From Sneathiella chungangensis (GTDB lineage: Bacteria; Pseudomonadota; Alphaproteobacteria; Sneathiellales; Sneathiellaceae), in assembly GCF_009882935.1 (NCBI RefSeq), contig NZ_WTVA01000004.1, positions 124,001 to 188,000 on the forward strand: a stretch of DNA of 64,000 bases. The letters are read 5' to 3'. The notes beneath the pieces are model-generated. The model worked only from the letters and a program-made list of their open reading frames with translations, was not told where the DNA came from and searched no databases. Shown here piece by piece: positions 13,756-55,655 of the stretch. The position numbers were made by a program, and so were the translations under genes. How positions within the stretch are numbered: the first letter of the stretch is position 1; each line of letters opens with the position of its first letter.

Positions 13756-13832
13756 GGGCCTGTAGCTCAGCTGGTTAGAGCCGTCCGCTCATAACGGACT
13801 GGTCGTAGGTTCAAGTCCTACCGGGCCCACCA
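13756..13832 (+). tRNA. tRNA with CAU anticodon (Ile2 or elongator Met)
   Basis: A 77-nt cloverleaf with encoded CCA. The acceptor stem GGGCCTG pairs with CGGGCCC (one T-G pair), the D arm is GTAGCTCAGCTGGTTAGAGC, the anticodon stem GTCCG/CGGAC closes the loop CTCATAA, and the T arm is GTAGGTTCAAGTCCTAC. The anticodon is CAU. This could be elongator tRNA-Met or tRNA-Ile2, whose C34 is modified to lysidine. The GGGCC acceptor start leans toward Ile2, but sequence alone does not settle it. The CCA end directly abuts mobile-element DNA, so the gene is the probable integration site. Confidence 0.93.
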
Positions 13833-13834
13833 CT
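13827..13834 (+). other. Candidate attachment core CCACCACT at tRNA 3' end
   Basis: The last tRNA bases and the next two bases (CCACCACT) recur at 55275-55282, in both places followed by the same hairpin block and the 3' end of a serine recombinase gene. This is the left edge of homology between the two copies. It is an inferred attachment core; no strand-exchange evidence is visible. Confidence 0.45.
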
Positions 13835-13842
13835 AACACTGA

Positions 13843-13893
13843 GGCGAACCTGGCTCCAGTCCAGGTTCGCCCCTGAACCCCGCAGAACCGGGG
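13843..13893. repeat. Paired hairpins at the element end, copy A
   Basis: First hairpin: GGCGAACCTGG / CCAGGTTCGCC, 11-bp perfect stem and 7-nt loop. Second: CCCCG / CGGGG with a 6-nt loop. Both recur in diverged form at 55291-55340. They lie between the tRNA and the recombinase stop codon, where recombinase-binding or attachment sites would be expected. Confidence 0.6.
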
Positions 13894-13955
13894 CCTTCGG
13901 GGTTATCCAGTGATGGCAGAGACTCTCTGTTAAAGGCTTCTTCCTTATAATTTCC

Positions 13956-13989
13956 CATTCGTCTCTGTCGCCCTGTTTCAGGGTCCAGT
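13956..13989. repeat. Identical 34-bp block shared with 55404-55437
   Basis: A block beginning CATTCGTCTCTGTCGCC and containing the small inverted repeat CCCTG-TTT-CAGGG is identical at 55404-55437, although the DNA on either side has diverged. Identity preserved only here suggests a functional site such as a recombinase-binding site or a transcript end. Confidence 0.6.
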
Positions 13990-14009
13990 TCATGGGATAT
14001 TACGATGGA

Positions 14010-15692
14010 CTATTGATGGAAACCGAGGCGCTTTTGTTGCTCATTCCAGTCGGATGGGAGGGAACTTGTTCTTTTGAGGGATTTAACGTTCAACGTCTCC
14101 GGCTGACGACCGTTAAGAATATCCTCAATGATGGCGGGCGCCAGAAAGGCGAGGGGAAGGACCCGGGTTATCTCCGTATCAAAGACCATTTCCCGTTCGG
14201 CAATTTCCTTCACTGATCCGGCTTCCCCTGACGCCAACTGATCAAACCAGTGTCTCGCTTGTGCGATCAAGCGGCAGAGATCTGGGTCGGGCTGTCGAAC
14301 ACGCGAGTGTCCGGCAATTGCCAGCTTTGCCTCAATTCCCTTGCGTTGCAAGGTAATGGCATGGTTCAGAGAAATAATATCATTGTGCTCATTATTGGTG
14401 ACGGTCTCTTCCATCGTTAACAATCTGGCCAGTGCCTTTCGGCTTAGATCAATTGTGATGGTGTCGGCGGACAGGCCAACTCTGTGTATGAGTGCTTGCA
14501 AGATGGCCTGCTGATGCCCGGTATCGTCATCAACCAACTTGCCGGCCAATTCATCCGCCTCGACTTTTAATCTTTGCAACAGGGATGGAGCGGGGTTGGC
14601 AAGTTGGAGAAAATCCATCAGCCTTTGCTGGTCGTGCAGCAGATCCCGAACAGGATGGATAACCGTCGCCTCCAATGTTCGGGCCGATAACCGCCATCCA
14701 CCTGCTTCCGGTTCCGCATTCTGCGCCAACTGTTTCGAGATATAGTAGCGATAGCGCTTGCCGTTTTTGCTGGCCTGGGCCTGATATAGCGGTTCTCCCG
14801 CTTCGTCGAAGACCAGCCCCGTCAGCAGAAACGGTGCTTTCACATTTGTCGGCGAAGACCGCTCCCGGCGATTGCCGCTCATCATCTGCTGAACCTGGTC
14901 CCAGACCTCCTGGTCAACGATGGCTTTATGCATCCCCGGAAAGGTTTCTCCTTTATGTGGGATCAATCCTATGTAAAGCGGATTGGAGAGCAGCCGATAC
15001 AGGTTACCCCGCAAGAAGGGCTTGCCGCCTGTAACAGATCCATCCTTTCGGATAATTTTCTTGGTAACAATGCCGAGACGGTCTGCCTCTGCTTTTAAAA
15101 GCCGGACCGTCCCGAGCTCGACATAGAGATCGAACAATAATCTTACTGTTGCGGCTTCCTCCTTATTGATCACCAGCTTGCGATCCTCAACATCGTAACC
15201 TAGGGGCAGATTGCCGCCCATCCATATGCCTTTCTTCTTGGAGGCCGCGATCTTGTCTCGGATCCGCTCGGCGGTGACCTCCCGTTCAAACTGGGCAAAG
15301 GAGAGAAGCACATTCAATGTCAGCCGACCCATGGAGGAGGTGGTATTGAATGCCTGCGTCACCGAGACAAAAGACACGTCCTGTTTATCCAGCCTCTCAA
15401 TGATCTTGGAGAAGTCAGCGAGGGACCGGGTGAGGCGATCCACCTTATAGACGACGATAATATCAACCTCGTGCCGCTCAACAGCCGCCAGCAGTTTTGT
15501 AAGGGCAGGGCGATCCATGGTACCGCCGGAGAAGCCCCCATCGTCATAGTCTGTGGTTAGAGGTTTCCAGCCCTCATGGCGCTGGCTCTTGATATAGGCT
15601 TCACAGGCCTCACGCTGGGCTTGTAGGGAATTAAAATCCTGCTCCAGACCATCCTCGGTCGATTTACGGGTATAGATGGCGCAACGCTGCAT
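14010..15692 (-). CDS. Large serine recombinase
   Basis: Site-specific DNA recombinase of the resolvase/invertase superfamily, 560 residues. The N-terminal catalytic domain has the YTRKSTEDG motif with the likely nucleophile Ser11, and VYKVDRLTRSLADF and LLSFAQFEREVTAERIRDK further on. A recombinase domain and a zinc-ribbon-like region follow, then a long C-terminal part. It is the third gene of a DUF3489-DUF2924-recombinase set, a recurring combination in alphaproteobacterial mobile DNA. The gene reads toward the tRNA and ends about 180 bp from it. The 3' end of a close relative lies at 55458-55655. It is probably the integrase of this element. Confidence 0.92.
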   Translation of the reverse strand: MQRCAIYTRKSTEDGLEQDFNSLQAQREACEAYIKSQRHEGWKPLTTDYDDGGFSGGTMDRPALTKLLAAVERHEVDIIVVYKVDRLTRSLADFSKIIERLDKQDVSFVSVTQAFNTTSSMGRLTLNVLLSFAQFEREVTAERIRDKIAASKKKGIWMGGNLPLGYDVEDRKLVINKEEAATVRLLFDLYVELGTVRLLKAEADRLGIVTKKIIRKDGSVTGGKPFLRGNLYRLLSNPLYIGLIPHKGETFPGMHKAIVDQEVWDQVQQMMSGNRRERSSPTNVKAPFLLTGLVFDEAGEPLYQAQASKNGKRYRYYISKQLAQNAEPEAGGWRLSARTLEATVIHPVRDLLHDQQRLMDFLQLANPAPSLLQRLKVEADELAGKLVDDDTGHQQAILQALIHRVGLSADTITIDLSRKALARLLTMEETVTNNEHNDIISLNHAITLQRKGIEAKLAIAGHSRVRQPDPDLCRLIAQARHWFDQLASGEAGSVKEIAEREMVFDTEITRVLPLAFLAPAIIEDILNGRQPETLNVKSLKRTSSLPSDWNEQQKRLGFHQ

Positions 15693-15701: not shown

Positions 15702-16115
15702 TCACAGGCCGAAGAACCGAGGTCCGGACCAGCGGGCCCCGGTAATGGTTCGGGCAACCTCTGAAAGAGAACCAAAAGATTTTCCCTCATAAAGGAAGCC
15801 GTCACTTCGGACATCGACCATATGCGTCCGACCCCGCCATTCCCGAACCAGCCTGGTTCCAGGCATTGGCTTTGCAGTCGCTGTTGGTGTTTCAATGGCC
15901 GGACTTGTCTTATGAGGCGCAGGAACATATCGCCCAAGCTGGCGAAGGGTTGATTTCCGAAGCCCGCCATATTCCTTTGCCTGACGGTTGTAATGAATGG
16001 CATAGCGAAGAAGCCGGGTGCTCAGTCCCTTGGGCGGAGGTCCGCTGTAAGCTTCGATCCAGGCGTCAATAAGGTTATCCCGGGAAAGTTGGCATTCAGA
16101 GGAGATATTCGCCAT
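15702..16115 (-). CDS. DUF2924 protein
   Basis: A 137-residue member of the DUF2924 family, recognised by GPPPKGLSTRLLRYAIHY near the N-terminus and by PGTRLVREWRGRTHMVDV ... GARWSGPRFFGL at the C-terminus. The family has no established activity and is repeatedly found beside a serine recombinase and a DUF3489 gene, so an accessory role in recombination is a reasonable guess. Start ATG 16115 was chosen over upstream options because GAGGG precedes it and it lies 4 bp after the DUF3489 stop. The recombinase starts 9 bp downstream. Confidence 0.85.
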   Translation of the reverse strand: MANISSECQLSRDNLIDAWIEAYSGPPPKGLSTRLLRYAIHYNRQAKEYGGLRKSTLRQLGRYVPAPHKTSPAIETPTATAKPMPGTRLVREWRGRTHMVDVRSDGFLYEGKSFGSLSEVARTITGARWSGPRFFGL

Positions 16116-16119
16116 ACCG

Positions 16120-16446
16120 TCATCCCTCAACCGCTTTATATAAGGTCTTTCCCGAAGCCGTCCGGGTGAGATTAATCCGGATCCCATTTTTGCGCAGTCC
16201 CGAAAGTCCCGCCCGGATACTATGGGCCTGCCATCCGGTTGCCTTCTGCAGGTCCTGCATGCGGGCGCCGTTGGAGCGCCTGATAAGCTTCAGGATGATA
16301 TCGGGCTTTTTAGGGGTGGGCATTGACTGCTTCAGTGTGCGGGACGAGGATGCCTGTTTGCCAACAGGTTTGGCTGAAGTGGCGTTAGTCTTAGCGGCTT
16401 TTTCCTTAGCTGGGATTAGATCTGATTGTGATGATGTCGCTGTCAT
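16120..16446 (-). CDS. DUF3489 protein (small winged-helix-like)
   Basis: A 108-residue protein. The N-terminal half is Ala/Lys/Ser/Pro-rich and probably disordered. The C-terminal half (KPDIILKLIRRSNGARMQDL ... GWQAHSIRAGLSGLRKNGI) matches DUF3489, which looks like a small winged-helix DNA-binding domain. ATG 16446 is preceded by GGAGG. It is the first gene of the recombinase operon and a candidate regulator or directionality factor. No function has been established. Confidence 0.82.
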   Translation of the reverse strand: MTATSSQSDLIPAKEKAAKTNATSAKPVGKQASSSRTLKQSMPTPKKPDIILKLIRRSNGARMQDLQKATGWQAHSIRAGLSGLRKNGIRINLTRTASGKTLYKAVEG

Positions 16447-16544
16447 ATTGACCTCCGTGATATTGCTCCGGCCCGATGCCGGAGCTTGCACTGAGGAAGG
16501 CCTGCCTCGAATTGGGTCGAAGGTCAGGCATACGGTGAGGCGGG

Positions 16545-16602: not shown

Positions 16603-18093
16603 TCAAAAAAGATTATCGAAAACACCCATTCCCGTGCGCGCAAAGTAATTGTCTTGGTAGGTTATTTCATGGCTGCCGCCTGTGAATTTGTGCACGGTAA
16701 TGGCAAGTTTAGGAATTTGGGATTCCTTTGCCCAAAGCAGAAACTGGGTCATTGAGTCAACCTGATCCGCATACTTGCTTCCGGGGAAGCTGAATATTTC
16801 ATGCTCAAAGGTCTGGAGCCATTCCGCCTTCTCTGGCAGGAATACCTTGCCTGCCTCGACAATAGGTGTCGCCATCTTGGCGCGGCTTTCTTTGTCTCCT
16901 GTCGGCTTTATCGGAATTGCCGGTACGTTCGTATGTTGCAGATTTTGATAGACCTGAATACCGCTTGAGGCATGCTCTACAAGCACGGCATTCGCCTTAT
17001 GGATATGCGCCAGCTCAACTATCGTTTTCAGCAGTTCCGGATATTCGAGCTTAAATCTTTGGCAGTCCAGCAGGAAATATCTTCCGCCACGGATACCCCA
17101 AGACGTGCAGCAGGAATAGGCGTTGTTTGGTCCAGTTCCAGCCGCGGTATCCCAACTGTCAACGATACTGTCGAACTTTTCCAAATATATGACATCGGTA
17201 TATAGCCGAAGCCATTTTTTCTTGAATAAAGTACCACCTGGGGGTGCGGGGTTCTGTTGATACTGAGCTTCAAAATCATAAATGCCGGCTTCTTTCCTGA
17301 TGCCTTCAAGTATCTCGAGGCTTTCCCGCTCTGCATGCAGTGGTTCTCCGGGCTCGCGCTCATAGCATTCATCGTCGCCAATTGGATAGCTTGTACATTC
17401 CGTCTCAATCGCCGGAATATCGAGATAGCACCATTCTTTTTCATTTATTTCCCGAAGATGGCCGATGAGATCATCGCAATGTACGCGTTGGGAGATGATG
17501 ATAATCCGGCCCGTATTCTTGTTGTTTAACCGGCTGAAAGCTGTGTGGTGATACCAGTCATTTACTTTCTTCCGCTCTGCCTCCGACATGGCTTCATTTG
17601 GTTTGATCGGATCATCGATAATCAAATAGTCGCAGCCAAACCCGGTGAGTGTCCCACCAACCGACGTCGTATAAATGCCTCCGCCTTCGGTCATAAAAAT
17701 GCTTTTTTCTGTATTCTTCAGCTTGCTGATCTTGAGCTTTGGAAATAGCTTGTTGATAAAGGGATCTTCCAGAAGCTTGCGTCTCTTCGCGGAGAAATCA
17801 GCGGCAAGCCCGTCCGAGTAGCTTACGCAGATGATCTTGGCCGTTGGATCATTTCCCAAAATCCAGATCGGGAGGGCAATTGATGCGCAAAAGGATTTCA
17901 AATATCTCGGGCCAACGGCAATCATCAATCTCTTCGTATCTCGCGTAACACAGCATTCCAAATAATAGGCCATGCAGTCAATATGCCAGTTTTCCAGACA
18001 TTTCTTGCCCTCAAAAAGCTCAAACAACTTGAGGCAAAAGCCTTTGAAGACAGTTCTGTATAGAGCGTTGACGGCCTGAATATTATTCTTCAT
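16603..18093 (-). CDS. Phage-type terminase large subunit
   Basis: A 496-residue protein of the terminase large-subunit type: an N-terminal ATPase and a C-terminal RNase H-like nuclease. The Walker-A-like segment is GPRYLKS (residues 61-67), of the variant lacking the standard GK[ST]. Walker B is LIIDDP (about 157-162), followed by GRIIIISQRVHCDDL. The nuclease part contains IVDSWDTAAG and AVLVEHASSG acidic motifs. In phages this enzyme packages DNA into capsids. Here no capsid, portal or tail gene is present. The start overlaps the DUF5681 gene by 11 bp. Confidence 0.85.
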   Translation of the reverse strand: MKNNIQAVNALYRTVFKGFCLKLFELFEGKKCLENWHIDCMAYYLECCVTRDTKRLMIAVGPRYLKSFCASIALPIWILGNDPTAKIICVSYSDGLAADFSAKRRKLLEDPFINKLFPKLKISKLKNTEKSIFMTEGGGIYTTSVGGTLTGFGCDYLIIDDPIKPNEAMSEAERKKVNDWYHHTAFSRLNNKNTGRIIIISQRVHCDDLIGHLREINEKEWCYLDIPAIETECTSYPIGDDECYEREPGEPLHAERESLEILEGIRKEAGIYDFEAQYQQNPAPPGGTLFKKKWLRLYTDVIYLEKFDSIVDSWDTAAGTGPNNAYSCCTSWGIRGGRYFLLDCQRFKLEYPELLKTIVELAHIHKANAVLVEHASSGIQVYQNLQHTNVPAIPIKPTGDKESRAKMATPIVEAGKVFLPEKAEWLQTFEHEIFSFPGSKYADQVDSMTQFLLWAKESQIPKLAITVHKFTGGSHEITYQDNYFARTGMGVFDNLF

Positions 18094-18478
18094 CGGATTT
18101 CTCCATAAATTTAGTTCTTGAAATAATTTTTGCGGTAAATGCGTCTAAAACGGCTTTATCGGTCGCCGTCAGTTCCTGTTCTTCTGTAATTTCCCCCTCA
18201 TCAGTCAAAAGTTTTATCGTCATGGTTAGTAAGGTGTTTGCGGCGCGCGGATCGCCCTGCACAGCCTTAACCGCAAGGCTTTTGAGCACCGCCCTTTGCT
18301 TCGAGATCTTTTTCGGCTTGCCGCCTTCCTTGATGGTGATCATTTCGCCAAGCTCCTCCATCAGGTCTGTCTTGAGGTTCTTCGCCCCCTTCGGGCGGCC
18401 TTTCTTGTTGCCGGACTGACCTGGCTTGAACTGGTGCTTTTTGGGTGGCTTTTTATAGCCGATATCGTCGTCACTCAT
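18083..18478 (-). CDS. DUF5681 protein
   Basis: A 131-residue, very basic protein. The KPPKKHQFKPGQSGNKKGRP segment followed by KGAKNLKTDLMEEL matches DUF5681, a family often encoded beside terminase genes. By position it may serve as a small terminase subunit that recognises DNA, but this is not demonstrated. ATG 18478 is preceded by AGGAGG and overlaps the end of the methyltransferase gene by 8 bp. The three genes are therefore translationally coupled. Confidence 0.8.
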   Translation of the reverse strand: MSDDDIGYKKPPKKHQFKPGQSGNKKGRPKGAKNLKTDLMEELGEMITIKEGGKPKKISKQRAVLKSLAVKAVQGDPRAANTLLTMTIKLLTDEGEITEEQELTATDKAVLDAFTAKIISRTKFMEKSDEE

Positions 18479-19913
18479 GGCTTTGTCCTCCTTCCGGCAC
18501 ATAGGTTGAAGGGGGCGGTAAAAGCTTGAGGCCTGACCGACCCTGATCCCGTATCTGATCGAAGGTCAGTCCCAGTTCGGCATGGATCGCCTGTTGTCCG
18601 GTAAAATCCTGCCAGCGCTTGACCGCTACGTCCACATAGCGGGGGTCGAGTTCCATACCTCTGCCCTTGCGACCGGTTTTTTCCGCGGCCATGATCAGGG
18701 TGCCGCTTCCGAGGAACGGATCGAGGATTGCGTCTCCCGGCGCCGAGCTATCCAGAATTGCATCGGCGATCATGGCGACGGGTTTGACCGTCGGGTGCAG
18801 GTCGAGATTTTCCTGGCGGTCCGGTCCGAAACTGTTCGTTCCGGTATACTCCCAGACGTTTGTCCGGTTGCGACCGTACTTTCCCAATTGAATATTGTTG
18901 AGATGCATTGCTGTCCCATTTTTGCAGACGAGAACGAGTTCATGGCGGGACCGGTAGAAGGACCCCATCCCCCCATTGTTTTTTACCCAGATGCAGAGAT
19001 TCAGCTGTTCGTGATAGAGATGTTCACAAACAGCCTGCAGCTGCGGCAAATGCCGCCAGTCCATAAATATGTAATGAACTGAGCCATCCTGGCTGAACTT
19101 GGTAAGATTAATGATTGCGTCGATCAAGAATTCGGTGAATTCTTTATCTGACATTTCGCCGGACGCCATTATGAATTCTTCATGATCGCGTTTCTCCGAA
19201 ACCCTTATGTGGCCCTTCACTTTCACATTGTAGGGAGGGTCTGCTATCACCTGCCGGGCAAATTCGCCGTCCAATAGACGGTCATAGCAGGCCTCATTCA
19301 GGGCATCTCCGCAGAGCACCCTGTGGCCACCAAGAAGCCAAAGGTCGCCGAGCCGGGAAACAGGAGGGTTTTTTAGATCGGGATGCGGAATCTCATCATC
19401 TTGCGTATTGTCAGCGGAATGCTGCAGCGTTTCAAAAGTGAAATCAATCTCCGGAATGTCAAATCCGGTTATCTCCAAATCGATGCCAACCTCCAGGAGA
19501 TCCGCAAATTCAATAGCAAGACGCTGATGATCCCACGAAGCCTCTTCGGATAAGCGATTGTCTGCGAGACGAAAGGCCTTGACCTGTGCTGCTGTCAAGT
19601 GATCTGCGAATATGACCGGCAGCTTCTTTATGCCAAGTTCCAGGGCGGCGAGCACCCTTGCGTGTCCCGCAATGACCGTGCCGTTCGTATCAACCAGGAC
19701 AGGGAGAATAAACCCGAATTCAGTGATACTGACTTTCAGTTTCCTGATCAGGCTTTTTGGGTGCTTTCGCGGGTTATTTTTGTATATTTTCAGCTGATCA
19801 ATCGGTACGCGCTCCATCCTGATAGAGACGTGCGGATTGTCTTCAGCTTTTTGGTTGTGGGATTTTTCAGCCGCAAGGTAATGTGCCTGTTGTTTGTTTT
19901 TACGCTTTGCCAT
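18471..19913 (-). CDS. ParB-like domain fused to a DNA methyltransferase
   Basis: A 480-residue two-domain protein. The N-terminal part (about residues 35-140) is a ParB/sulfiredoxin-like domain with IYKNNPRKHPKSL, VIAGHARVLAALELG and LADNRLSEEASWD. The C-terminal part is a beta-class DNA methyltransferase with the catalytic DPPYNV motif and the SAM-binding LDPFLGSGT motif. It probably modifies adenine N6 or cytosine N4 in a specific sequence. No restriction endonuclease is nearby. An upstream in-frame start exists, but ATG 19913 has an AAGGAA site, which lies in the arm of an inverted repeat (see 19919-19958). Confidence 0.9.
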   Translation of the reverse strand: MAKRKNKQQAHYLAAEKSHNQKAEDNPHVSIRMERVPIDQLKIYKNNPRKHPKSLIRKLKVSITEFGFILPVLVDTNGTVIAGHARVLAALELGIKKLPVIFADHLTAAQVKAFRLADNRLSEEASWDHQRLAIEFADLLEVGIDLEITGFDIPEIDFTFETLQHSADNTQDDEIPHPDLKNPPVSRLGDLWLLGGHRVLCGDALNEACYDRLLDGEFARQVIADPPYNVKVKGHIRVSEKRDHEEFIMASGEMSDKEFTEFLIDAIINLTKFSQDGSVHYIFMDWRHLPQLQAVCEHLYHEQLNLCIWVKNNGGMGSFYRSRHELVLVCKNGTAMHLNNIQLGKYGRNRTNVWEYTGTNSFGPDRQENLDLHPTVKPVAMIADAILDSSAPGDAILDPFLGSGTLIMAAEKTGRKGRGMELDPRYVDVAVKRWQDFTGQQAIHAELGLTFDQIRDQGRSGLKLLPPPSTYVPEGGQSHE

Positions 19914-19918
19914 CTTCT

Positions 19919-19958
19919 GTTCCTTTCGTCTACATAACGAACTTGCAGACGAAGGAAC
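19919..19958 (-). promoter_or_regulatory. Inverted repeat masking the methyltransferase ribosome site
   Basis: On the minus strand GTTCCTTCGTCT pairs with AGACGAAAGGAAC (12 bp with a one-base bulge, 15-nt loop). The 3' arm contains the AAAGGA ribosome-binding site of the ParB-methyltransferase gene, 5 nt before its ATG. In RNA this would hide the site; as DNA it could be an operator. Either way it lies where autoregulation would act. Confidence 0.5.
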
Positions 19959-20319
19959 CGGAGGGCCTGACGTCAGCAAGTAAACCTGCTTCCGTCTTCT
20001 CGATCAACGCCCTCCTTGGCTCACGAGAAAACTACTTAATGTAATAAATATAGTGCTCCAGGAACGCTGTCAACACAAGATATGCGAAAAAGCAATTCGT
20101 TTACTGTGCAATGCGTTCTTGTTTTCATTCTATCAAGTATTCGTGCTTAACTCACTTATCGTTCGGCCAAAAGATCTTCAATATCTCGGTAGCTAAGAGT
20201 AAACCGAGCATAGAACCAGACCGCATGCTGAATTATTTGAGATGGAAAACGATGCCGGGAATAAGAGATCTTTTGCCTCGAAGAAAACTAAACCAAGGTC
20301 GAATTCCTTTCCACGAAGC
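19959..20319. other. Non-coding stretch upstream of the methyltransferase
   Basis: About 360 bp without a convincing gene. It should contain the promoter of the leftward methyltransferase operon, but I see no strong -35/-10 pair. Open frames here lack ribosome sites and recognisable protein sequence. The right edge of the tRNA-proximal mobile module probably falls in this interval. Confidence 0.4.
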
Positions 20320-20417
20320 TAATGTGATGGGATGGACGCCTCCTGTTGATGAAGTTCTGCAACTTCCATTATGGCGCAAACAATGCCGGAACAGGAGGCG
20401 TCCATCCCATCACATTA
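20320..20417. repeat. Perfect 28-bp inverted repeat of unknown family
   Basis: Two identical 28-bp arms (20320-20347 and 20390-20417) face each other across 42 bp. The arms contain GATGGGATGGACGCCTCCTG. The core TGGACGCCTCCTG occurs again at 20490-20518 and 41322-41350. Such a structure could be a small non-autonomous element, the joined ends of an insertion sequence or a strong cruciform. No transposase of a matching family is recognised here. Confidence 0.75.
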
Positions 20418-20489
20418 ACTCAAAACTCGCCCGATTTAGTCATATTGAAGGAATTGGGAACCTCCTAAATCGTTGAAATACAACGACCC

Positions 20490-20641: not shown

Positions 20642-20758
20642 CTGATTTGATGTCATTAGACATTTAAATTGGTCAAACCGGCAATGGCACATCTCCAGAA
20701 ACGTTGCGATGATCATATAAAGTCTAATTCATTGCCAATAAATCGGAGGTATACAACA

Positions 20759-21772
20759 TTGGCGCGAAATCCAACTGATCGTCCGGAGTGGTTTGCACAA
20801 GTACAGGAAGATGTGATTGAACCTGAGATGCCAATTCTGGATCCGCATTTCCATTTTTTTACGGGACGCGGGCATGAGTTTCTGGCGCAGAATTTTCTGG
20901 ATTACGTAGATCAAGGCCACAAGATTGTTGGTGCGATCCACGTCGAAGCCAACGCTGATTTTTTTGCTGGCGGCGGCGCTTGCGGGGAAATGAGATTTGC
21001 CATCAATCAAGGTGCCATAATGCGTAAGCTCCAGCAGGGACGGGAAACGATTTGTGATCCTACATCCGGTGTGGTCGGTTATACCGATCTGCGGGGAGGG
21101 GAGGTGGAGGCGGAATTGGAGGTACTTCAGGAGGCCGCTGAGAACAGACTGTGTGCCATCAGAAATTCAGCCGCGTGGGACGAGGACGAAAAGGTGCCAA
21201 ATGGCCACACCAAGCCACCGCAAGGGTTGTTGATTGATCCTAATTTCCAAAAGGGAATCCGCCAATTGGCCCAAAAAAATCTATGCTTTGATTCATTTTG
21301 CTACTTTACGCAAATTCCGGAACTGATCGCACTTGCACAGGCAGTGCCCGAGGCAAAAATCGTTTGTGAACATTTAGGAGGAATTGTTGGTGTAGGACGT
21401 TACCAAGACCAACAAAAGGCGTATTTTGATCAGTGGCGTGCTAATATCTCGGAACTGGCGACATGCGAAAATGTAGTCATAAAATTAGGTGCCGTGGCGA
21501 TGTCACTTAGTGGTTTCGGTTGGCACAAACAGGGCAAACCACTTGGGTCAAATGAATATGCCGATTTTTATTCTCCCTGGTTTCTCCATGCCATAGAGGC
21601 ATTCGGGCCGGAACGCTGCATGTTCGAGAGCAATTTTCCTGTCGATGGTGTATCGATTTCGTACGGCGTTTTATGGAATGCTTTCAAGCGCATCGCTGGT
21701 TCTTTCTCAGTCGACGAGAAGGCATTCCTCTTCCATAAAACCGCCGCCACGACCTATCGGTTGGACATTTAG
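20759..21772 (+). CDS. Amidohydrolase-family metal-dependent hydrolase
   Basis: A 337-residue TIM-barrel hydrolase of the amidohydrolase_2 group, which includes pyrone-dicarboxylate lactonase-like enzymes and decarboxylases. The metal-binding HxH appears as DPHFHFF near the N-terminus, CEHLGG is in the middle, and MFESNFPVDG near the end carries the acidic residue. It is a soluble enzyme. Start TTG 20759 is preferred to GTG/ATG options upstream because CGGAGG lies 9 bp before it and the next residues fit the family start. The gene converges with the FadH-like gene. The substrate is unknown; ring-opening or lactone hydrolysis would suit the context. Confidence 0.85.
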   Translation: MARNPTDRPEWFAQVQEDVIEPEMPILDPHFHFFTGRGHEFLAQNFLDYVDQGHKIVGAIHVEANADFFAGGGACGEMRFAINQGAIMRKLQQGRETICDPTSGVVGYTDLRGGEVEAELEVLQEAAENRLCAIRNSAAWDEDEKVPNGHTKPPQGLLIDPNFQKGIRQLAQKNLCFDSFCYFTQIPELIALAQAVPEAKIVCEHLGGIVGVGRYQDQQKAYFDQWRANISELATCENVVIKLGAVAMSLSGFGWHKQGKPLGSNEYADFYSPWFLHAIEAFGPERCMFESNFPVDGVSISYGVLWNAFKRIAGSFSVDEKAFLFHKTAATTYRLDI

Positions 21773-21780
21773 CATTCTCG

Positions 21781-48194: not shown

Positions 48195-49138
48195 ACGCGC
48201 AGCGCTTATTGGCATTACTTGTTGCCATCATTATTTCTGTGCCTTTGTTGTTCCCGGATGGACAGAGTGTCAGCTTGGTGAATGCCATTCTGATCTGGTC
48301 GATATTCGCGATCGGGTTTGATCTGGTATTTGGTGTTGCGGGAATGCTCTCCTTTGGGCATGCGGCATTTTTTGGCGTTGGCGCATATACGCTCTCCCTT
48401 CTAACAATGCGCATGGGCTGGGATTTCATTCCATCGCTCGGAGCCGCCGGTGTAGTTGGTGGAGCGGTGGCGCTGTTATTTAGTTATTTTGCGATCCGGG
48501 TTTCGGGGTTGTTCTTTGCACTTCTTACGCTGGCTCTTTCTCAATTGATTTATATTATGGCGGGAACCAAGCTCCGGATGTTGACAGGGGGTGTTGATGG
48601 TATCGCCGGAGTGCCGCGTCCAGACCTTTTCGGGATCGACTTCTATGATGACGGAAATTATTACTTCTTTTTGTTAGCTTTGTTTATCCTGGCCTTGCTG
48701 ATTTCCGGCCTTATCCGGATATCGCCACTGGGGCAAGCATTGAAAGCCATCAAATCCAATGAGGTAAGAGCGGAGCAGATCGGCTTTAATGTTCAGCGGC
48801 TTCAACGATCAGTCTTTACGATTTCCGGAATTTATGCCGGTATTAGTGGCGGCTTGCTTGCTTCGCTGATTTTCTACGTCGGTCCGCAGATGCTCCACTG
48901 GAGCACGTCCGGTGATATCGTAATCATGGTTCTGCTGGGGGGGATGGGTACGTTATTCGGGCCTATTCTCGGTGTTGCCATTTTCGAGATTATGCGTGAA
49001 TGGCTGTCGACCCAGACATCGCACTGGTACGGCATACTTGGCCTTGTCTTCATTATTTGCACGATTGGGATGCCGAAAGGGATTGCGGGATTGGTAACGC
49101 AGCTTTGGGACCGTATCACGCCGGGGGGCAAGTCATGA
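48191..49138 (+). CDS. ABC transporter permease, LivM-type
   Basis: A 315-residue inner-membrane protein. FGVAGMLSFGHAAFFGVGAY and VIMVLLGGMGTLFGPILG are characteristic of LivM. It overlaps both neighbours by 4 bp, showing tight translational coupling through the permease and ATPase genes. Confidence 0.93.
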   Translation: MNAQRLLALLVAIIISVPLLFPDGQSVSLVNAILIWSIFAIGFDLVFGVAGMLSFGHAAFFGVGAYTLSLLTMRMGWDFIPSLGAAGVVGGAVALLFSYFAIRVSGLFFALLTLALSQLIYIMAGTKLRMLTGGVDGIAGVPRPDLFGIDFYDDGNYYFFLLALFILALLISGLIRISPLGQALKAIKSNEVRAEQIGFNVQRLQRSVFTISGIYAGISGGLLASLIFYVGPQMLHWSTSGDIVIMVLLGGMGTLFGPILGVAIFEIMREWLSTQTSHWYGILGLVFIICTIGMPKGIAGLVTQLWDRITPGGKS

Positions 49139-49899
49139 GCGGTGCAGAACAAGCAAAACACGTATTGCGTTGTGAGGATATTGAGGTGTCCTATGGCGCA
49201 TTCAAGGCCGTAACCAATGTCAGCTATGAGTTTAAACCTGGTCTGTTGTACGGTTTGATAGGGCCGAATGGTGCAGGGAAGACGACGCTTATGAATGCGT
49301 TGTCGGGGCGCGCCCAACTCAGCAACGGGCGCGTGTTTCTCAATGAACAGGAGATTACGAAGCAGCCACCTCATGCTCGGACATGGGCAGGCCTTGGTCG
49401 AAGTTTCCAGATTACCCAGATATTTTCGGAGATGACGGTCTTTGAAAACCTGCGTCTTGCGGCACAGGCACATCATTTCAGGTTGCAACCATTCTGGCGT
49501 CCGGTCGGGAAGTTCAGAGAGATTGCGAATGATGCCGAAAGAGTGTTGCAGGAGATTGGACTCGAGAGTTTCGGTCATATCAGTGCCGGAAGCCTCTCCC
49601 ATGGGGATCAGCGCGCGCTCGAAATCGGACTTGCCTTGCTAAGCGAGCCGCAAGTTCTACTGCTGGATGAGCCACTTGCCGGGGTCGGGCATGATGTCGC
49701 GGAAAAGGCCGTCGAATTAATCCGTCGTGTATCGCAAGGGCGCACAGTCTTGCTGATTGAGCATAACATGGACGTCGTAATGGAAATTTCCGATGAGATT
49801 ATTGTCATGCTGGCGGGTGAAATACTGGCGTCAGGCGAGGCTGAGACGATCAAGAGTGATCCTCGTGTTCGAACCGCATATCTGGGAGAGGAAGAATGA
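49135..49899 (+). CDS. ABC transporter ATP-binding protein, LivG-type
   Basis: A 254-residue ATPase. Walker A is GPNGAGKTT, the signature motif is degenerate (LSHGDQRALEIG instead of LSGGQ), and Walker B is VLLLDEPLAG. This LSxGxQR form is normal for LivG-type subunits. The open frame extends upstream into livM, but ATG 49135 overlaps the LivM stop as ATGA and starts the domain correctly. Confidence 0.94.
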   Translation: MSGAEQAKHVLRCEDIEVSYGAFKAVTNVSYEFKPGLLYGLIGPNGAGKTTLMNALSGRAQLSNGRVFLNEQEITKQPPHARTWAGLGRSFQITQIFSEMTVFENLRLAAQAHHFRLQPFWRPVGKFREIANDAERVLQEIGLESFGHISAGSLSHGDQRALEIGLALLSEPQVLLLDEPLAGVGHDVAEKAVELIRRVSQGRTVLLIEHNMDVVMEISDEIIVMLAGEILASGEAETIKSDPRVRTAYLGEEE

Positions 49900-50597
49900 G
49901 CATTCTGGAAATGCAGAATTGCAATGTCTTCTACGGTAAGGCTCAGGCATTGCATGATGTTTCAATCATAGTGGGAGATGGCGAGATAGTTTCCCTGATC
50001 GGTCGAAACGGCGCCGGTAAAAGCACCTTGCTGAAGGCAATCATGGGCCTGAACCCAATAAAATCTGGTACACGTAAATTCGAAGGCCGCGATGTCACCA
50101 ATGCGACCACCGAGATGCTAGGACGGTCCGGCATCGCATTCGTGCCAGAAGATCGGCGAATTTTTGCAACATTGAGCGTTGATGAGAACTTGCGTATTGC
50201 GACAGTGATGGGACGCAAGGGGCCATGGAATCTAGAGCGCGTTTACAATCTATTTCCGAGGCTGAAGGAGCGGATGAATTCTCGCGGGGATACATTGTCT
50301 GGTGGGGAACAGCAAATGCTCGCCGTCGGTCGTGGGCTGCTCACAAATCCGAAGCTGTTGCTATTGGACGAACCCACAGAAGGTCTTGCGCCTTTGGTGG
50401 TCGCGGATCTCATCAAAGCTATGGAACTTATCAACGCGGAAGGCGTCGCAATTCTTCTTGTCGAGCAAAATTTGAAAGTGCCACTGAAACTCGCCAAACG
50501 GCAGTATCTGATTGATAACGGACATATCCGATGGTCCGGAAAAACAGATGAACTGTTGGCAGAACGGGAAAAAATCGAAGCACTCATAAGCCTCTAA
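49896..50597 (+). CDS. ABC transporter ATP-binding protein, LivF-type
   Basis: A 233-residue ATPase. Walker A is GRNGAGKST, the signature is LSGGEQQML and Walker B is LLLLDEPTEG. It forms the ATPase pair with the LivG-type protein. It overlaps that gene by 4 bp and is followed after 17 bp by the thiolase gene, so transport and catabolism are in one transcription unit. Confidence 0.94.
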   Translation: MSILEMQNCNVFYGKAQALHDVSIIVGDGEIVSLIGRNGAGKSTLLKAIMGLNPIKSGTRKFEGRDVTNATTEMLGRSGIAFVPEDRRIFATLSVDENLRIATVMGRKGPWNLERVYNLFPRLKERMNSRGDTLSGGEQQMLAVGRGLLTNPKLLLLDEPTEGLAPLVVADLIKAMELINAEGVAILLVEQNLKVPLKLAKRQYLIDNGHIRWSGKTDELLAEREKIEALISL

Positions 50598-50614
50598 AAT
50601 TGGGAGTTAAGCGA

Positions 50615-51853
50615 ATGTCAGATGTATATATCATTGGAATAGGGATGTCGCAGTTTGGGAAGTTCTTGAACCGTTCCGTCAAGGACATGACTGCTGAAGT
50701 AGTTGAAGAGGCTCTGAAAGACTCCGGTCTGGAACGAGAGAATATTCAAGCGGCATTTTTTGCAAACGCCTCCCAGGCGGCAGTTGAGGCGCAGTATCTG
50801 GTGCCGGGGCAGATTGCCTTGCGTTCTGCTGGGTTCGAAGGGATTCCGATTACCAATATCGAGAATGCCTGCGCCAGTGCGAGTACTGCCCTCAACTCAG
50901 CCTGTGCCTTTGTCCAGTCCGGGCAGGGCGATATCGCGCTTGCAATTGGAACCGACAAGATGAACTCGACGGACCGTGCCCGCTCCTTTGCGGTTTTCGA
51001 CGGTGGGTGGGATGTCCATACGGCTGACGAATCCATTGCCCGGTTACAGGCTATGTCAAAAGACTTGCCGTTGCCGCCAGAAGCGGAAGATAACGGCGGA
51101 CAACGCAGCGTCTTTATGGATGTCTATGCATCTCTGGCGCGTAATCATATGAACGCATTCGGGATAACACAAGCCCAGATTGCGGCCGCTTGTGCAAAAA
51201 ACCATACTCATTCCCAATATAACCCCAAGGCGCAATATCAAAACAAGATGACAGTGGAAGAAGTACTGCGGGACCGACCCGTTGCCTGGCCGCTGACACT
51301 TGCCATGTGCGCCCCGATTAGTGATGGCGCTGCAGCGGCTATTGTGGTTTCGGAAGAAAAAGCGCGCCAGATCGGCATGGGACGTGCCGTAAGGATCGCG
51401 GCGTCTGTCCTCCGGTCGGGCACAAACCGCAAGCATGACGAATTCAACAAGCAGATCACCCATCTGGCCGCAAATGCCGCCTATGAAAAGGCGGGTCTGT
51501 CCCCGAAAGATATGGACGTAGCGGAAGTCCATGACGCAACGGCTTTTGCGGAGCTGCTTCAGGTTGAAGCTTTGGGATTCTGTGAGTTTGGGGAAGGCGG
51601 CCGCCTGTCCGAGGAAGGTCATACGACAGTTGGCGGGCGCATTCCTGTCAATCCCTCCGGGGGCTTGGAGTCCCGTGGTCATCCCATTGGGGCAACCGGC
51701 CTCGCGCAGGTTTATGAACTCGTAACCCAACTGCGCGGGGAGGCGGGCCCTCGTCAGGTGGAGGGAGCGCGGACAGCCATAGCCGAAAACGGAGGTGGGT
51801 TCCTGGGCTATGAAGAAGCCGCTGCCTGCATCACCATATTGCAGAAGAATTAA
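50615..51853 (+). CDS. SCPx-type thiolase
   Basis: A 412-residue thiolase-superfamily enzyme. The nucleophile segment NACASAS contains Cys86, and the conserved histidine loop is SRGHPIGATG. The C-terminal loop is ENGGGFLGYEEAA rather than the CxGGG of standard thiolases, which places it in the SCPx/lipid-transfer-protein group. Likely reaction: CoA-dependent cleavage of a 3-ketoacyl-CoA. ATG 50615 is preceded by GGGAG; a start five codons earlier has no site. It resembles the kind of gene whose tail survives at 42297-42347. Confidence 0.88.
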   Translation: MSDVYIIGIGMSQFGKFLNRSVKDMTAEVVEEALKDSGLERENIQAAFFANASQAAVEAQYLVPGQIALRSAGFEGIPITNIENACASASTALNSACAFVQSGQGDIALAIGTDKMNSTDRARSFAVFDGGWDVHTADESIARLQAMSKDLPLPPEAEDNGGQRSVFMDVYASLARNHMNAFGITQAQIAAACAKNHTHSQYNPKAQYQNKMTVEEVLRDRPVAWPLTLAMCAPISDGAAAAIVVSEEKARQIGMGRAVRIAASVLRSGTNRKHDEFNKQITHLAANAAYEKAGLSPKDMDVAEVHDATAFAELLQVEALGFCEFGEGGRLSEEGHTTVGGRIPVNPSGGLESRGHPIGATGLAQVYELVTQLRGEAGPRQVEGARTAIAENGGGFLGYEEAAACITILQKN

Positions 51854-51874
51854 TCGAAGACGGGAAAAACAGTC

Positions 51875-53425
51875 ATGCGCGTAATAGACTATTTCGATCG
51901 TGGTGTTGCGCTGGATCCGGAACGGACTTGCCTGAAGGACAGCCGTATTTCTCGAAGCTATGCGGATGTGCAGGAGCGAAATTACAGGATTGCTAATGCT
52001 CTTATTCGGATGGTCGTAAAGCCTCAGGCGAAAGGCGCTGTTTTCAGTTCCAATGCCGTGCCGGCATTTGAATGTTGCCTTGGTATGTTACGCGCGGGCG
52101 TCGTATGGGTCCCACTCAACGCGAAAAATGAAGTCAAGGAAAACGCCTATATCCTCGATAACTGCGATGTCGAAGTTCTTTTCTATCATAGTGAATTTGA
52201 GGAAAAAGCCGGAGAATTTGCCAAGCTTTGCCCGAAAATCCGGCATTTCATCTGTATCGATAAGTCGGGTGGTCGCGGCGTCTATCTGGAAGACTTGATA
52301 GAAGGCGAGGAGAGCACCGATCCGGATATCCCGAGTGATCAGGACACATTAGCCTCTATCTTTTCATCTGGCGGAACAACAGGCCTTCCCAAGGGTGTGC
52401 TTTGGAGCAATCGTATTTGGGATGCCATGATTACGGCTTTCTATACTACGATGCCTATGAAGAAACCGCCGGTTCATCTGGTCGTTGCCCCGATGTCCCA
52501 TGCGGCAGGTGTCCTCGCTATTCTCTCTATGGCGAATGGCGGAACTCAGGTAATTCTTCCGCAGTTTGATGCGGAAATGGTTGCGAAGACAATCGAGAGC
52601 GAAGGCGTCACACATCTCTTCCTTCCGCCGACGGCAATTTACATGCTACTCGCGTATCCGGACGTGAAGAAATATGAATACAGCAGTCTGGAGCATTTTA
52701 TCTACGCGGCGGCACCCATGTCAGTTGATAAGTTGAAGGAATGTCTGGATATCTTTGGTCCGGTCATGAGCCAGTCATTCGGGCAAGCTGAGGCACCGAT
52801 GTTTTGCACCTATTTATCACCTCAAGATCACCTTGTAATAGGAAGTAATACAAAGGAAAAGCGTCTGGCGAGTTGCGGGCGCCAAACCCTGCAGACCCGT
52901 GTCCGGATCATGGATGATGAGGGCAATCTCCTGCCGCCGAATGAGCGCGGGGAAATTGTCGTTAAAGGCAATCTGGTGATGACAGGCTATTATAAAAATC
53001 CAGAAGCAACTGCGGAGGTTTCCACATTCGATTGGCACCATACCGGCGATATCGGATATATCGACGAAGACGGGTATGTGTACATTGTCGACCGGAAGAA
53101 AGACATGATCATTACCGGTGGTTTCAATGTTTACCCGAGTGAGATCGAGCAAGTGATTTGGGGGCATCCTTCCGTTCAGGATTGTGCGGTGGTAGGCGTA
53201 CCCGACGAAAAATGGGGTGAAGCCGTGAAGGCGGTGATTGAGTTGAAACCAGGCTGCACGCTTGAGGAAGAGGAAATTATTAACCTCTGCAAGAAAAATC
53301 TTGGCAGTGTTAAGGCTCCGAAGTCCGTCGAAATCTGGAAAAGTCTACCCCGCACACCGGTTGGAAAAGTGCGCAAGAAGGATATTCGTACGAGCTACTG
53401 GACGGACAAGGAGCGGGCGATCTAG
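51875..53425 (+). CDS. AMP-binding acyl-CoA ligase
   Basis: A 516-residue ANL-superfamily ligase. FSSGGTTGLPKGVLWS is the P-loop, followed by SQSFGQAEAPM, HTGDIGYIDEDGYVYIVDRK and the C-terminal RTPVGKVRKKD with the catalytic lysine. It starts 21 bp after the thiolase and is followed by a second ligase. The two ligases differ enough to have different substrates, for instance the imported acid and a downstream acid intermediate. Confidence 0.92.
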   Translation: MRVIDYFDRGVALDPERTCLKDSRISRSYADVQERNYRIANALIRMVVKPQAKGAVFSSNAVPAFECCLGMLRAGVVWVPLNAKNEVKENAYILDNCDVEVLFYHSEFEEKAGEFAKLCPKIRHFICIDKSGGRGVYLEDLIEGEESTDPDIPSDQDTLASIFSSGGTTGLPKGVLWSNRIWDAMITAFYTTMPMKKPPVHLVVAPMSHAAGVLAILSMANGGTQVILPQFDAEMVAKTIESEGVTHLFLPPTAIYMLLAYPDVKKYEYSSLEHFIYAAAPMSVDKLKECLDIFGPVMSQSFGQAEAPMFCTYLSPQDHLVIGSNTKEKRLASCGRQTLQTRVRIMDDEGNLLPPNERGEIVVKGNLVMTGYYKNPEATAEVSTFDWHHTGDIGYIDEDGYVYIVDRKKDMIITGGFNVYPSEIEQVIWGHPSVQDCAVVGVPDEKWGEAVKAVIELKPGCTLEEEEIINLCKKNLGSVKAPKSVEIWKSLPRTPVGKVRKKDIRTSYWTDKERAI

Positions 53426-53496
53426 CTTCCCCAGGCGCGTGCGGCCTGAGGGAACAAATAACCCTGAAAAAGCAAAAAGAATGGGGAAATGATGTA

Positions 53497-55032
53497 ATGA
53501 ATATTTCCAGCTTTTTACCCAGCGTTGCCAATGTTCATGGCGACAAGCCGGCTGTCTCTCTCGGAACGAAGCGATTGCATACCTACCGCGCGTTCTCGGA
53601 TCGTGTCACCGGCCTCGCCGGAGCGTTACGTGGCGAACTTAGGTTAAGCGTGGGTGATCGCGTTGGTCTTGCGATGACGAATACACCGCAATATCTTGAA
53701 ATTTTGGTTGCCTGTTGGCATGCGGGGCTCTGTGTTGTGCCGATGAACTCAAAACTTCATCCAAAGGAGTTCTCCTACATCTTGGATCATGCCGGCGTTA
53801 AAATCTGCTTTGTCACTGAAAACCTGACGGAGGGCGTTAGCGAGTCCCTTGGTACGGTCGATGGATTTAAACAGGTTATCTGTGTTAATGATGATGAATA
53901 TGAAACTCTGATCAAACACGCGCCTATCAACAAGGTTGATGTCTCTGCCACGGATCCAGCGTGGATATTCTATACCAGCGGAACAACTGGACGCCCAAAG
54001 GGGGCAACACTCACCCATCAAACCTTGCTCGCTATGACATTGCGATACTACGCGGATATAGATCAACCTTCACCGGAGGATAACTATTTCCACACGGCTC
54101 CGATGTCTCATGCGGATGGTCTTTACGCCCTTCCGCATCTAATAAAGGCATCACATCATATCGTGCCGGAAAGCGGTGGATTTGATGTGGCGGAGATTTT
54201 CGGCCTTCTTGAAACCTATAAGAACGCAACCTTCATGGCTGCGCCGACGATGCTGACGCGGATGACGAATCATCCGAAGGCAAGCGAAGCCAGGTCCGAG
54301 AATATCAAGACAATCTATTATGGCGGGGCCCCTATGTATCTGGAGGATACGAAACGCGCCATTGCCACATTCGGACCCTGTTTTGTGCAGATTTTCGGAC
54401 AGGGCGAATCGCCGAACACTGGCACTAGTCTCAGCAAGGAATTGCATGCAGACTATGATAACCCGAAATATGAAAAGCGACTTTCAAGTGTTGGTTTGCC
54501 GCGCACAGGGGTGGAAGTCAGAATTGTCGACGAAGAGGACAATGAAGTTCCGACCGGAGAAATTGGCGAGATTGTCTTAAAAAGTGATGTCGTCATGGCG
54601 GGTTACTGGAATGATCCGGAGGCTACGAGCCGGACAATCAGAAATGGATGGCTCCATACAGGAGATGTCGGATTTTTGGATGAAGACGGATTTCTCACCC
54701 TGAAGGACCGCTCCAAAGATATGATAATTAGCGGTGGAACCAATATATATCCGCGTGAGATTGAAGAAGTGCTGCTCATGGACAGCCGCCTGGAAGAGGT
54801 GTCTGTAATCGGCCGTCCTGAGGCGGACTGGGGCGAGGAAGTCGTTGCCTTTGTCGTGCTGAGGGAAGGAGCATCCATTACAACGGAAGAACTCGAGAAT
54901 CTTTGCCTGAATAATATTGCCAGGTTCAAGCGGCCCAAGGAGTATTTTTTCGTCGATCAATTGCCAAAAAGTAATTACGGGAAGATCCTGAAAACTGAGC
55001 TCAGAAAGCACTTTCACCTGAAAAATTCATAA
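53497..55032 (+). CDS. AMP-binding acyl-CoA ligase
   Basis: A 511-residue ANL-superfamily ligase. FYTSGTTGRPKGATLTH, QIFGQGESPN, HTGDVGFLDEDGFLTLKDRS and the end KSNYGKILKTEL with the catalytic lysine are in order. It is the last gene of the Liv-thiolase-ligase operon. GGGGAAA lies before ATG 53497. The DNA changes character right after its stop, where TTCCCTG repeats begin. Confidence 0.92.
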   Translation: MNISSFLPSVANVHGDKPAVSLGTKRLHTYRAFSDRVTGLAGALRGELRLSVGDRVGLAMTNTPQYLEILVACWHAGLCVVPMNSKLHPKEFSYILDHAGVKICFVTENLTEGVSESLGTVDGFKQVICVNDDEYETLIKHAPINKVDVSATDPAWIFYTSGTTGRPKGATLTHQTLLAMTLRYYADIDQPSPEDNYFHTAPMSHADGLYALPHLIKASHHIVPESGGFDVAEIFGLLETYKNATFMAAPTMLTRMTNHPKASEARSENIKTIYYGGAPMYLEDTKRAIATFGPCFVQIFGQGESPNTGTSLSKELHADYDNPKYEKRLSSVGLPRTGVEVRIVDEEDNEVPTGEIGEIVLKSDVVMAGYWNDPEATSRTIRNGWLHTGDVGFLDEDGFLTLKDRSKDMIISGGTNIYPREIEEVLLMDSRLEEVSVIGRPEADWGEEVVAFVVLREGASITTEELENLCLNNIARFKRPKEYFFVDQLPKSNYGKILKTELRKHFHLKNS

Positions 55033-55074
55033 GTGCCTGACAACATAAAATTTCCGGGATGATCGCTAATTTTG

Positions 55075-55241
55075 TTTCCCTGTTTAAAAAAATCTCCCTG
55101 ATACATGTCTAATTTTCCCTGTTAACTTTTTTAGGGAATAAGGAAAAACAATAATGAGAATAGAGAGTTATCACGTATTCTAAGAGGAATTTACGTTGAA
55201 ATAGCTAAATTCCCCGTATTTTCCCTGTTTATCAGGGAAAT
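55075..55241. repeat. Cluster of TTCCCTG direct and inverted repeats
   Basis: TTCCCTG occurs at about 55076, 55126 and 55220, a variant CTCCCTG at 55094, and inverse AGGGAA copies at about 55133 and 55235. The last pair forms a hairpin (TTTCCCTG-TTTAT-CAGGGAAA-like). Such iterated motifs often bind a recombinase, replication or partition protein. The cluster sits just left of the second recombinase remnant. Confidence 0.6.
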
Positions 55242-55457
55242 AGGTGGAGACGGGTTCGCTTCTGACTGCTACCTCCACCACTCATTCAGAGGCGAACCCT
55301 GGTCCAATCCAGGTTCGCCCCTGAACGCCGCAGTTCCGGGGCCTTTGGTGATACCCTCCGTGAACAGAGACACATCAATAGGAGCATTAAAGCCGTAAAT
55401 CGGCATTCGTCTCTGTCGCCCTGTTTCAGGGTCCAGTCCATGGTATATTAAGATAGT
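55242..55457. repeat. Element end, copy B (homologous to 13827-14009)
   Basis: Starts at CCACCACT (55275-55282) and contains the GGCGAACC-type hairpin (55291-55319), the GCCG/CCGGGG region and the 34-bp block identical to 13956-13989 (55404-55437). It is the diverged partner of the DNA between the tRNA and the intact recombinase gene. Left of the core, GGTGGAG (55242) and CTCCACC could pair, but no tRNA is formed. Confidence 0.8.
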
Positions 55458-55655
55458 CTATTGATGGAAACCGAGATGCTTTCGCTGCTCATTCCAGTCG
55501 GTTGGAAGAGGGTTTATTCTCTTGAGGGACCTAACAGTCAGCGTCTCGGGCTGGCGGCCTGCAAGAATTCCCTCAATGATGGAGGGCGCCAGGCATACAA
55601 TCATAAGTGCTAGAGAGATTTTGGTGTCGTCCTCTTTTTGGGCAATTGTCCCGAA
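55458..55655 (-). pseudogene. 3' fragment of a second serine recombinase gene
   Basis: The minus-strand frame reads LAPSIIEGILAGRQPETLTV ... then DWNEQRKHLGFHQ and stops, very close to the last residues of the intact recombinase (LAPAIIEDILNGRQPETL ... DWNEQQKRLGFHQ). Similarity fades near IAQKEDDTK, and the N-terminal catalytic domain is missing. It is the remnant of a second, related element. Confidence 0.85.

Follow-up and report, generated by a model that had tools for sequence, protein, structure and literature searches.

Tandem islands at the 3′ end of a tRNA-Met gene in Sneathiella chungangensis and the clade of large serine recombinases that probably integrated them

Islands placed at tRNA genes by tyrosine integrases have been collected in the Islander set, which comprises 3919 islands and lists 125 tandems with at least two members and 4 with at least three (PMC4383910). 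Serine recombinases at tRNA genes have been called rare, the examples being phage phiRSM1 at a tRNA-Ser and eight actinomycete integrative and conjugative elements (AICEs) of Mycobacterium at a tRNA-Leu (PMC3218068). Phage phiPam-6 of Paracoccus lies at a tRNA-Met, with 17-bp flanking repeats that end in CTACCAT (PMC3925955, PMC6536676), and among the phage-inducible chromosomal islands shown for mycobacteria those with tyrosine integrases are at tRNA genes and the one with a serine integrase is not (PMC10654092). Here we describe a stretch of 64,000 nucleotides (the window) from the alphaproteobacterium Sneathiella chungangensis, positions 124001-188000 of contig 15 in a genome of 3.81 Mb, where a tRNA-Met gene is followed by a large serine recombinase (LSR) and by some 41 kb of DNA with two catabolic loci. 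We read this as the first unit of a tandem array of site-specific islands at the tRNA-Met 3′ end, integrated by a clade of LSRs that takes tRNA 3′ ends as its chromosomal attachment site (attB), and we give this reading a probability of roughly 85%.

The array resembles the Islander islands in its integration at a tRNA 3′ end, in the restored tRNA and in its tandem arrangement, but differs in having a serine instead of a tyrosine recombinase and a shared core of just 6-8 bases. It has the serine recombinase at a tRNA in common with phiRSM1, the Mycobacterium AICEs and phiPam-6, which are isolated cases at one tRNA each. Staphylococcal cassette chromosome elements also possess large serine recombinases, insert at a gene 3′ end and form composite tandem arrays, although their target is the rlmH gene and not a tRNA. 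The recombinases of phages WO and AcaML1 are 34-55% identical to ours where they match and are likewise preceded closely by a DUF2924 gene; the two WO/AcaML1 record stretches examined contained no tRNA, and a magnesium chelatase gene has been reported as one integration site of WO (PMC9203015). In AcaML1 (L346) the recombinase is split in two genes, the small one matching only the C-terminal domain of the clade (residues about 420-539), and gp4, upstream of it, is a DUF2924 protein. Within the literature searched, where subscription papers were mostly out of scope, DUF2924 was mentioned for Wolbachia only and we found no description of the clade, of an element attachment site (attP) resembling a tRNA T-arm or of such arrays. 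What is new here is that tRNA-end islands, a known kind, appear to be run by a clade of serine recombinases.

A sequence-only reading of the window had proposed that the DNA from the tRNA 3′ end to the 3′ end of the recombinase is repeated in diverged form on the far side of the catabolic loci. The repeat is real: aligning the two ends, 13827-14144 matches 55275-55592 with 77.6% identity over 321 columns (blastn), and the local alignment of 13700-14400 with 55150-55900 scores 286, against 27 at most in 100 shuffles. Both copies contain the core CCACCACT, which occurs in the window at 13827 and 55275 only, and the proposed hairpin (GGCGAACC..GGTTCGCC), the 34-base identical block and the recombinase coding end are all present. 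The far copy had been extended to 55655; its nucleotide match stops at 55592, while recombinase-like protein similarity reaches 55643 (contig position 179643). The features that make up the two ends are the following.

13756-13832, plus strand: tRNA-Met gene (CAT), the target, with its encoded CCA at 13830-13832.
13827-13834, plus strand: core CCACCACT; the dyad centre of the joint corresponds to the point between 13827 and 13828 (tRNA nucleotides 71/72), with CC as the probable crossover dinucleotide.
13833-14009, plus strand: left end (LE) of unit 1, an attachment arm with a GCGAACC hairpin, up to the recombinase stop codon.
14010-15692, minus strand: intact large serine recombinase of 560 aa with Resolvase and Recombinase domains, no CxxC zinc motif and a conserved helical C-terminus.
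15702-16187, minus strand: DUF2924 protein, constant neighbour of the recombinase and candidate directionality or accessory factor.
16120-16491, minus strand: DUF3489 protein, the second frequent neighbour of the recombinase.
55247-55274, plus strand: right end (RE) of unit 1, a T-arm-like half-site (GAGACGGGTTCGC-N4-GACTGC-N5).
55275-55282, plus strand: core CCACCACT at the joint of units 1 and 2.
55283-55592, plus strand: LE of unit 2 with a remnant of the recombinase 3′ end (coding on the minus strand).

The integrase adjoins the 3′ end of an intact tRNA, as in other tRNA islands; at the far end (55275) just the last six tRNA bases recur, and no longer piece of the tRNA was seen there. A conserved RE lies left of the second core and a conserved LE with a decayed recombinase right of it, which bears out the proposal of two related elements in tandem at one tRNA. 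Both copies are genuine, but two is an undercount, there being at least five heads. The repeated head has six matches in the genome, all on the plus strand of contig 15, of which five are element heads (137827, 179275, 196937, 206372, and 253905) whereas at the sixth place, 194321, part of a recombinase is present but no head. RE-core-LE joints are formed at the four inner heads, and the RE is the same each time, with the inverted repeat CCCTGTT..CAGGGAAA followed by GACGGGTTCGC and, some 15 bases further on, the core; the core is CGACCACT at the last joint and CCACCACT at the others. An intact recombinase is found only in the tRNA-proximal unit; from the other units the protein search recovered remnants 23, 63, and 475 codons long, or none at all. 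The G+C content of the units is 47-50%, and that of the DNA left of the tRNA 56%.

A head that recurs several times in a genome could also be a dispersed repeat unrelated to integration, an outcome that the sequence-only reading had itself named as fatal to its proposal. The six matches share one contig and strand, however, and the five heads are joined to the tRNA or to an RE at one core, and the phase lock to the tRNA and the core identity in other genomes (see below) point the same way, so that joint structure refutes this explanation and we leave it practically no chance. Having all copies on one strand of one contig would suit a segmental duplication, in which homologous recombination made tandem copies of a single element end, without repeated integration. 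Against this, the heads are only 69-95% identical to one another (they differ by 5-31%) and the REs 74-85%, the units measure 41,448, 17,662, 9,435, and 47,533 bp (unit 2 runs from 55275 past the window end to contig position 196936), and in related genomes both the heads and the cargo at this tRNA are different ones. Head divergence and unequal unit sizes argue that this is not one duplicated segment and, together with the joint structure, lead us to reject duplication as very unlikely. The best supported reading remains the tandem insertion of related elements at one tRNA.

Relatives show the site in both states. We compared the DNA after the same tRNA-Met in 15 Sneathiella genomes including that of S. 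chungangensis, and a head sits there in 10 of the other 14 (11 of 15 in all), in diverged form recognised by eye in G012 and preceded in G013 and G019 by some 220 bp of additional DNA. Four genomes (G010, G008, G003, and G011) have no head at the tRNA. The empty site that had been called for was found in G010, whose right flank is collinear with contig 15 from about 449.4-450 kb; a G003 reading frame matches the same region at 41%, and the short right flanks of G008 and G011 gave no match. The position of the G010 flank implies that about 311 kb separate the tRNA from the native flank in S. chungangensis, only 116 kb of which lie between recognised heads. A 6-kb probe taken from 366 kb was recovered at nearly full length in four of the ten Sneathiella genomes searched, in the same orientation and 96-196 kb right of the tRNA in G017, G021, and G022 and on a separate contig in G013. 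Arrays of two or three recognised heads occupy the site in G021, G022, and G020, the last of these (an assembly 86% complete) having several heads and no recombinase match.

The piece of about 220 bp between the tRNA and the LE (774-992 of L074 in G013, 830-1048 of L076 in G019) starts with a different left end (..TGTTATyACAGGGTTTTTT..) and finishes in a seemingly decayed tRNA 3′ end, and a similar left end follows an RE in G020 (joint 16289 of the joined flank). This piece could be a mini-element, or one end of an element from a different family.

The recombinase of unit 1 has the domain order of LSRs, an N-terminal Resolvase domain (PF00239, 2.4e-39) followed by Recombinase (PF07508, 6.1e-13), and R9, S11, D85, R86, L87, and R89 are invariant in 32 sequences, spaced as the active-site residues R8, S10, D81, R82, L83, and R85 listed for Bxb1 (PMC12884075). 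CxxC after residue 275 was found in none of 81 clade sequences, and in the LSR survey described below it occurs in 4 of 18 clade members vs. 16 of 22 other LSRs; despite the missing zinc mark the protein is an LSR by its other domains. Its structural model (mean predicted local distance difference test 83.6, predicted template-modelling score 0.39) has the LSRs of Bxb1, SPbeta, phiC31, and A118 as best fold matches, although with low whole-chain template-modelling scores, and the conserved helical C-terminal segment, for which no convincing Pfam family was obtained, looks to us like a helix-turn-helix. Where the DNA upstream extends for 1 kb or more (71 of the best 80 relatives), a DUF2924 gene directly precedes the recombinase in every case and a DUF3489 gene is present in 58, and in the survey DUF2924 precedes 14 of 18 clade members vs. 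0 of 22 other LSRs. The DUF2924 fold gave no PDB match at E 0.001; its constancy suggests that the protein may act in recombination. There is also a second recombinase subfamily with a similar catalytic domain and a different C-terminus (G000:C11:1136019-1137107, L317, and L016, L017, and L020), the last three lying near tRNA-Ser or tRNA-Met and L317 not.

The recombinase belongs to a broad clade, many members of which lie beside tRNA genes. A scan of an 84,980-species collection returned at least 587 relatives of the recombinase, and the locus counts given here refer to the best 80. In 50 of these a tRNA gene lies 169-476 bp past the recombinase 3′ end, always convergent and of 11 isotypes altogether (Gln 12, Ser 11, Met 8, Tyr 4, Arg 4, Ala 3, Leu 3, Lys 2, and Asp, Thr, and Val 1 each), whereas in none of the 80 is there a tRNA among the 700 bp upstream, where 71 of the loci have 1 kb of sequence or more. 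Behind the encoded CCA, element letters are conserved at +3 to +7 (C.70, A.74, G.40, T.72, C.66), and CAGTC with at most one mismatch occupies these positions in 21 of the 50, compared with 0-4 of 50 at each of 52 other offsets. A motif phase-locked to the tRNA end over 11 isotypes is the mark expected from site-specific integration.

As a control, 67 genomes of the class were searched with PF07508, taking LSRs irrespective of clade. There were 58 matches and 43 frames of at least 430 aa; two from our own array and G089:C1:1049677 were left out, and 40 were examined. Counting as members those whose best identity to the first set reached 35% (the value next below being 29%), 18 belong to the clade and 22 do not, 20 of the latter being usable. 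A tRNA is found within 700 bp in 7 of 18 clade members vs. 0 of 20 others (Fisher p = 0.0025) and within 1.7 kb in 11 of 18 vs. 1 of 20 (p = 0.00024), the clade tRNAs being convergent throughout; dropping two positives met previously (G046 and G089) leaves 5 of 16 vs. 0 of 20 (p ~0.012). The clade, found in many Alphaproteobacteria, appears specialised in tRNA ends.

The right end can be recognised by sequence as well. The pattern GGTTCG-N5-GACTG-N6-CMRCCA has 50 matches in 31 of 385 genomes of the class, vs. 4 for the reversed pattern, at least two of the 50 being due to chance. Thirty of these places were taken on as loci; two chance ones (L229 and L230) are included in the letter counts and left out of the later profile. 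Letters beyond the pattern are conserved too (n = 30, the two chance loci included): GAGA before it (.93.90.97.80), C after GACTG (.83), and CA before the core (.97.80). In L230 (1450-1528) it is a tRNA-Ala gene plus a second CCA that itself fits the pattern, which shows how close the RE is to a tRNA 3′ half. We traced 21 REs to their other end, and seven led to a recombinase, or its remnant, beside a tRNA. In all seven (G089 counted once) the six bases of the core equal the last six of the tRNA, namely Gln in G089 and G385, Tyr in G177, Ser in G228 and G183, Val in G219, and Lys in G230, and these elements are about 1.8 to 61 kb long.

Nine Sneathiella joints, four of them our own, were examined for symmetry, leaving out the G020 joint 26456 with its decayed core. 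Self-complementarity peaks at the CC centre, which is tRNA nucleotides 71/72 (0.48 vs. 0.13-0.39 at 26 other centres), and taken as attP these joints are a dyad with a short central core, as in LSRs; the eight class-wide joints of the same test carry GACTG/CAGTC pairs by construction. The LE departs from the empty site of G010 right after CCA, which places the exchange within or before the core. In the RE, GGTTCGC sits three bases further out than GGTTCRA of the tRNA T-arm, and other LSRs are known to have half-sites similarly offset in attP relative to attB. From these sequences, it would seem that the enzyme recognises in attB the motif of the T-arm and in attP a mimic of it.

In the mechanism that we propose, the incoming circle would bring an attP in which RE (GGTTCGC-N4-GACTGC) and LE (NN-CAGTC-like) form a dyad around a core identical to the final six bases of the tRNA. 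This attP would be paired by the recombinase with the tRNA 3′ half, where the T-arm GGTTC stands in for the RE motif, and strands would be exchanged at the CC of nucleotides 71/72, the element restoring the tRNA end. Because the restored tRNA-core site would stay beside the tRNA, the next element could enter there, pushing older ones outward, and these would lose their recombinase. We lean slightly towards a broader view as well, in which the clade with its obligate DUF2924 partner is a general tRNA-end integrase that reads the T-arm GGTTC and the acceptor end, with an attP that mimics the T-arm and limitless stacking at one tRNA; the features read being common to all tRNA genes, a switch of isotype would need a change in the six-base core alone.

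Several observations weigh against our main reading. Of the best 80 relatives, 23 have at least 700 bp of downstream DNA and no tRNA within that distance (in 7 the downstream DNA is too short to judge); a convergent tRNA follows at 0.8-9.8 kb in eight of these 23, and a predicted element joint is seen in L129 and L133, the rest showing neither. Loci without a near tRNA are scattered over a quick recombinase tree. The survey likewise left 11 of its 18 clade members without a tRNA inside 700 bp. Two of the 21 traced REs (G063 and G058) lead to a tRNA without a recombinase and with a mismatched core, and 12 met no tRNA in the stretch available: G116, with none in 60 kb (the recombinase search stopped short of its last 40 kb), G109, where the contig end was reached, with a recombinase start there, and 11 others (G139 counted twice), with none in the 0.6-26 kb fetched or remaining on the contig. 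The core agreement in seven of seven is partly constrained, as the RE pattern admits four core types, and the composite GACTG-N6-core-NN-CAGTC is weakly enriched (10 matches vs. 5 in the control, two of the ten, L192 and L197, chance-like). G003 has CCACCACT after the tRNA and yet no head, and the RE scan found no RE past contig position 253905, so that the outer end of the array was not located. Finally, neither excision nor integration was observed.

Beyond the recombinase and its two neighbours, unit 1 contains the following.

16603-18093, minus strand: terminase large subunit.
18083-18502, minus strand: DUF5681 protein adjoining the terminase.
18471-19979, minus strand: ParB-like/N6-N4 DNA methyltransferase.
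20669-40000, mostly minus strand: cargo locus A, with amidohydrolase, FMN oxidoreductase, acyl-CoA ligases and dehydrogenases, enoyl-CoA hydratases, TRAP transporter, thiolase, SDR, and AraC and TetR regulators.
41540-42238, minus strand: IS6/IS240-type transposase between catabolic loci A and B.
46070-55032, plus strand: cargo locus B, with a branched-chain-type ABC transporter, thiolase, and two acyl-CoA ligases; the same operon lies right of the same tRNA in G017 and G021.

The first three of these genes raise the possibility that the units are decayed prophages and the recombinase a plain phage integrase. The 10 kb upstream of the recombinase contain a relative of the terminase in 8 of the 80 loci, of DUF5681 in 11, and of the ParB-methyltransferase in 13, and the related recombinases of AcaML1 and WO, with DUF2924 upstream, belong to phages. 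Yet the 35 scanned proteins of unit 1 (small proteins and open reading frames lying outside the scan) include no capsid, portal, tail, or lysis gene, and no relaxase or conjugation gene either, and 18 large proteins of three delimited elements elsewhere, which include restriction, sensor, and transporter proteins, likewise yielded no capsid, portal, or tail gene. We consider a prophage origin doubtful. As a separate observation, the trio (16603-19979) recurs near the recombinase module in either orientation in L117, L121, L126, L137, L138, L139, L147, and L178. Elsewhere in unit 1, a 31-nucleotide inverted repeat at 20317-20420 (97% complementary, arms 42 nucleotides apart) lies in a 121-codon frame without family match, and a tRNA-Arg called by ARAGORN at 48838-48921 was rejected, being inside a transporter gene and without Rfam match.

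The catabolic loci had been suggested to have arrived in or between the elements, and both are inside the first unit of 41,448 bp. With a probe from locus A (24700-32500), the 14 other Sneathiella genomes yielded nothing beyond short matches; a locus B probe (46070-53500) was found at nearly full length in five: in G017 and G021, where its linkage to the same tRNA can be read, at a distance of 41-50 kb to the right and between different flanks, and in G002, G013, and G019 on a contig other than that of the tRNA. Strains lacking the elements and still carrying the loci at the same place would have spoken against such an arrival; locus B is absent from the head-less G010, G008, and G011, the head-less G003 being outside that search, and no such strain was found. 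Most likely the cargo came with the islands. The differing contexts of locus B in G017 and G021 would also fit an array assembled elsewhere that entered once, or one reshuffled by IS6 elements and recombination between joints, and IS6-type transposases are indeed present in several units. The differing two- or three-head arrays at this site in G021, G022, and G020 are instead what serial gain and loss would yield, and we hold acquisition en bloc to be unlikely and the serial insertion of islands at the tRNA probable. IS6-type transposase sequences recur at window 41540-42238 and at contig positions 195709-196516 and 224566-225361, and are also found in the arrays of relatives.

Integration at tRNA ends is mainly credited to tyrosine integrases, an unrelated family, and here a serine recombinase clade is found at 11 tRNA isotypes. 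Its readable attP rule makes the islands of the clade findable by sequence, its members are candidate tRNA-targeted integrases for use as tools, and two unnamed protein families, DUF2924 and DUF3489, gain a testable role. In S. chungangensis, the array explains how a single contig site gathers more than 100 kb of catabolic and other islands.

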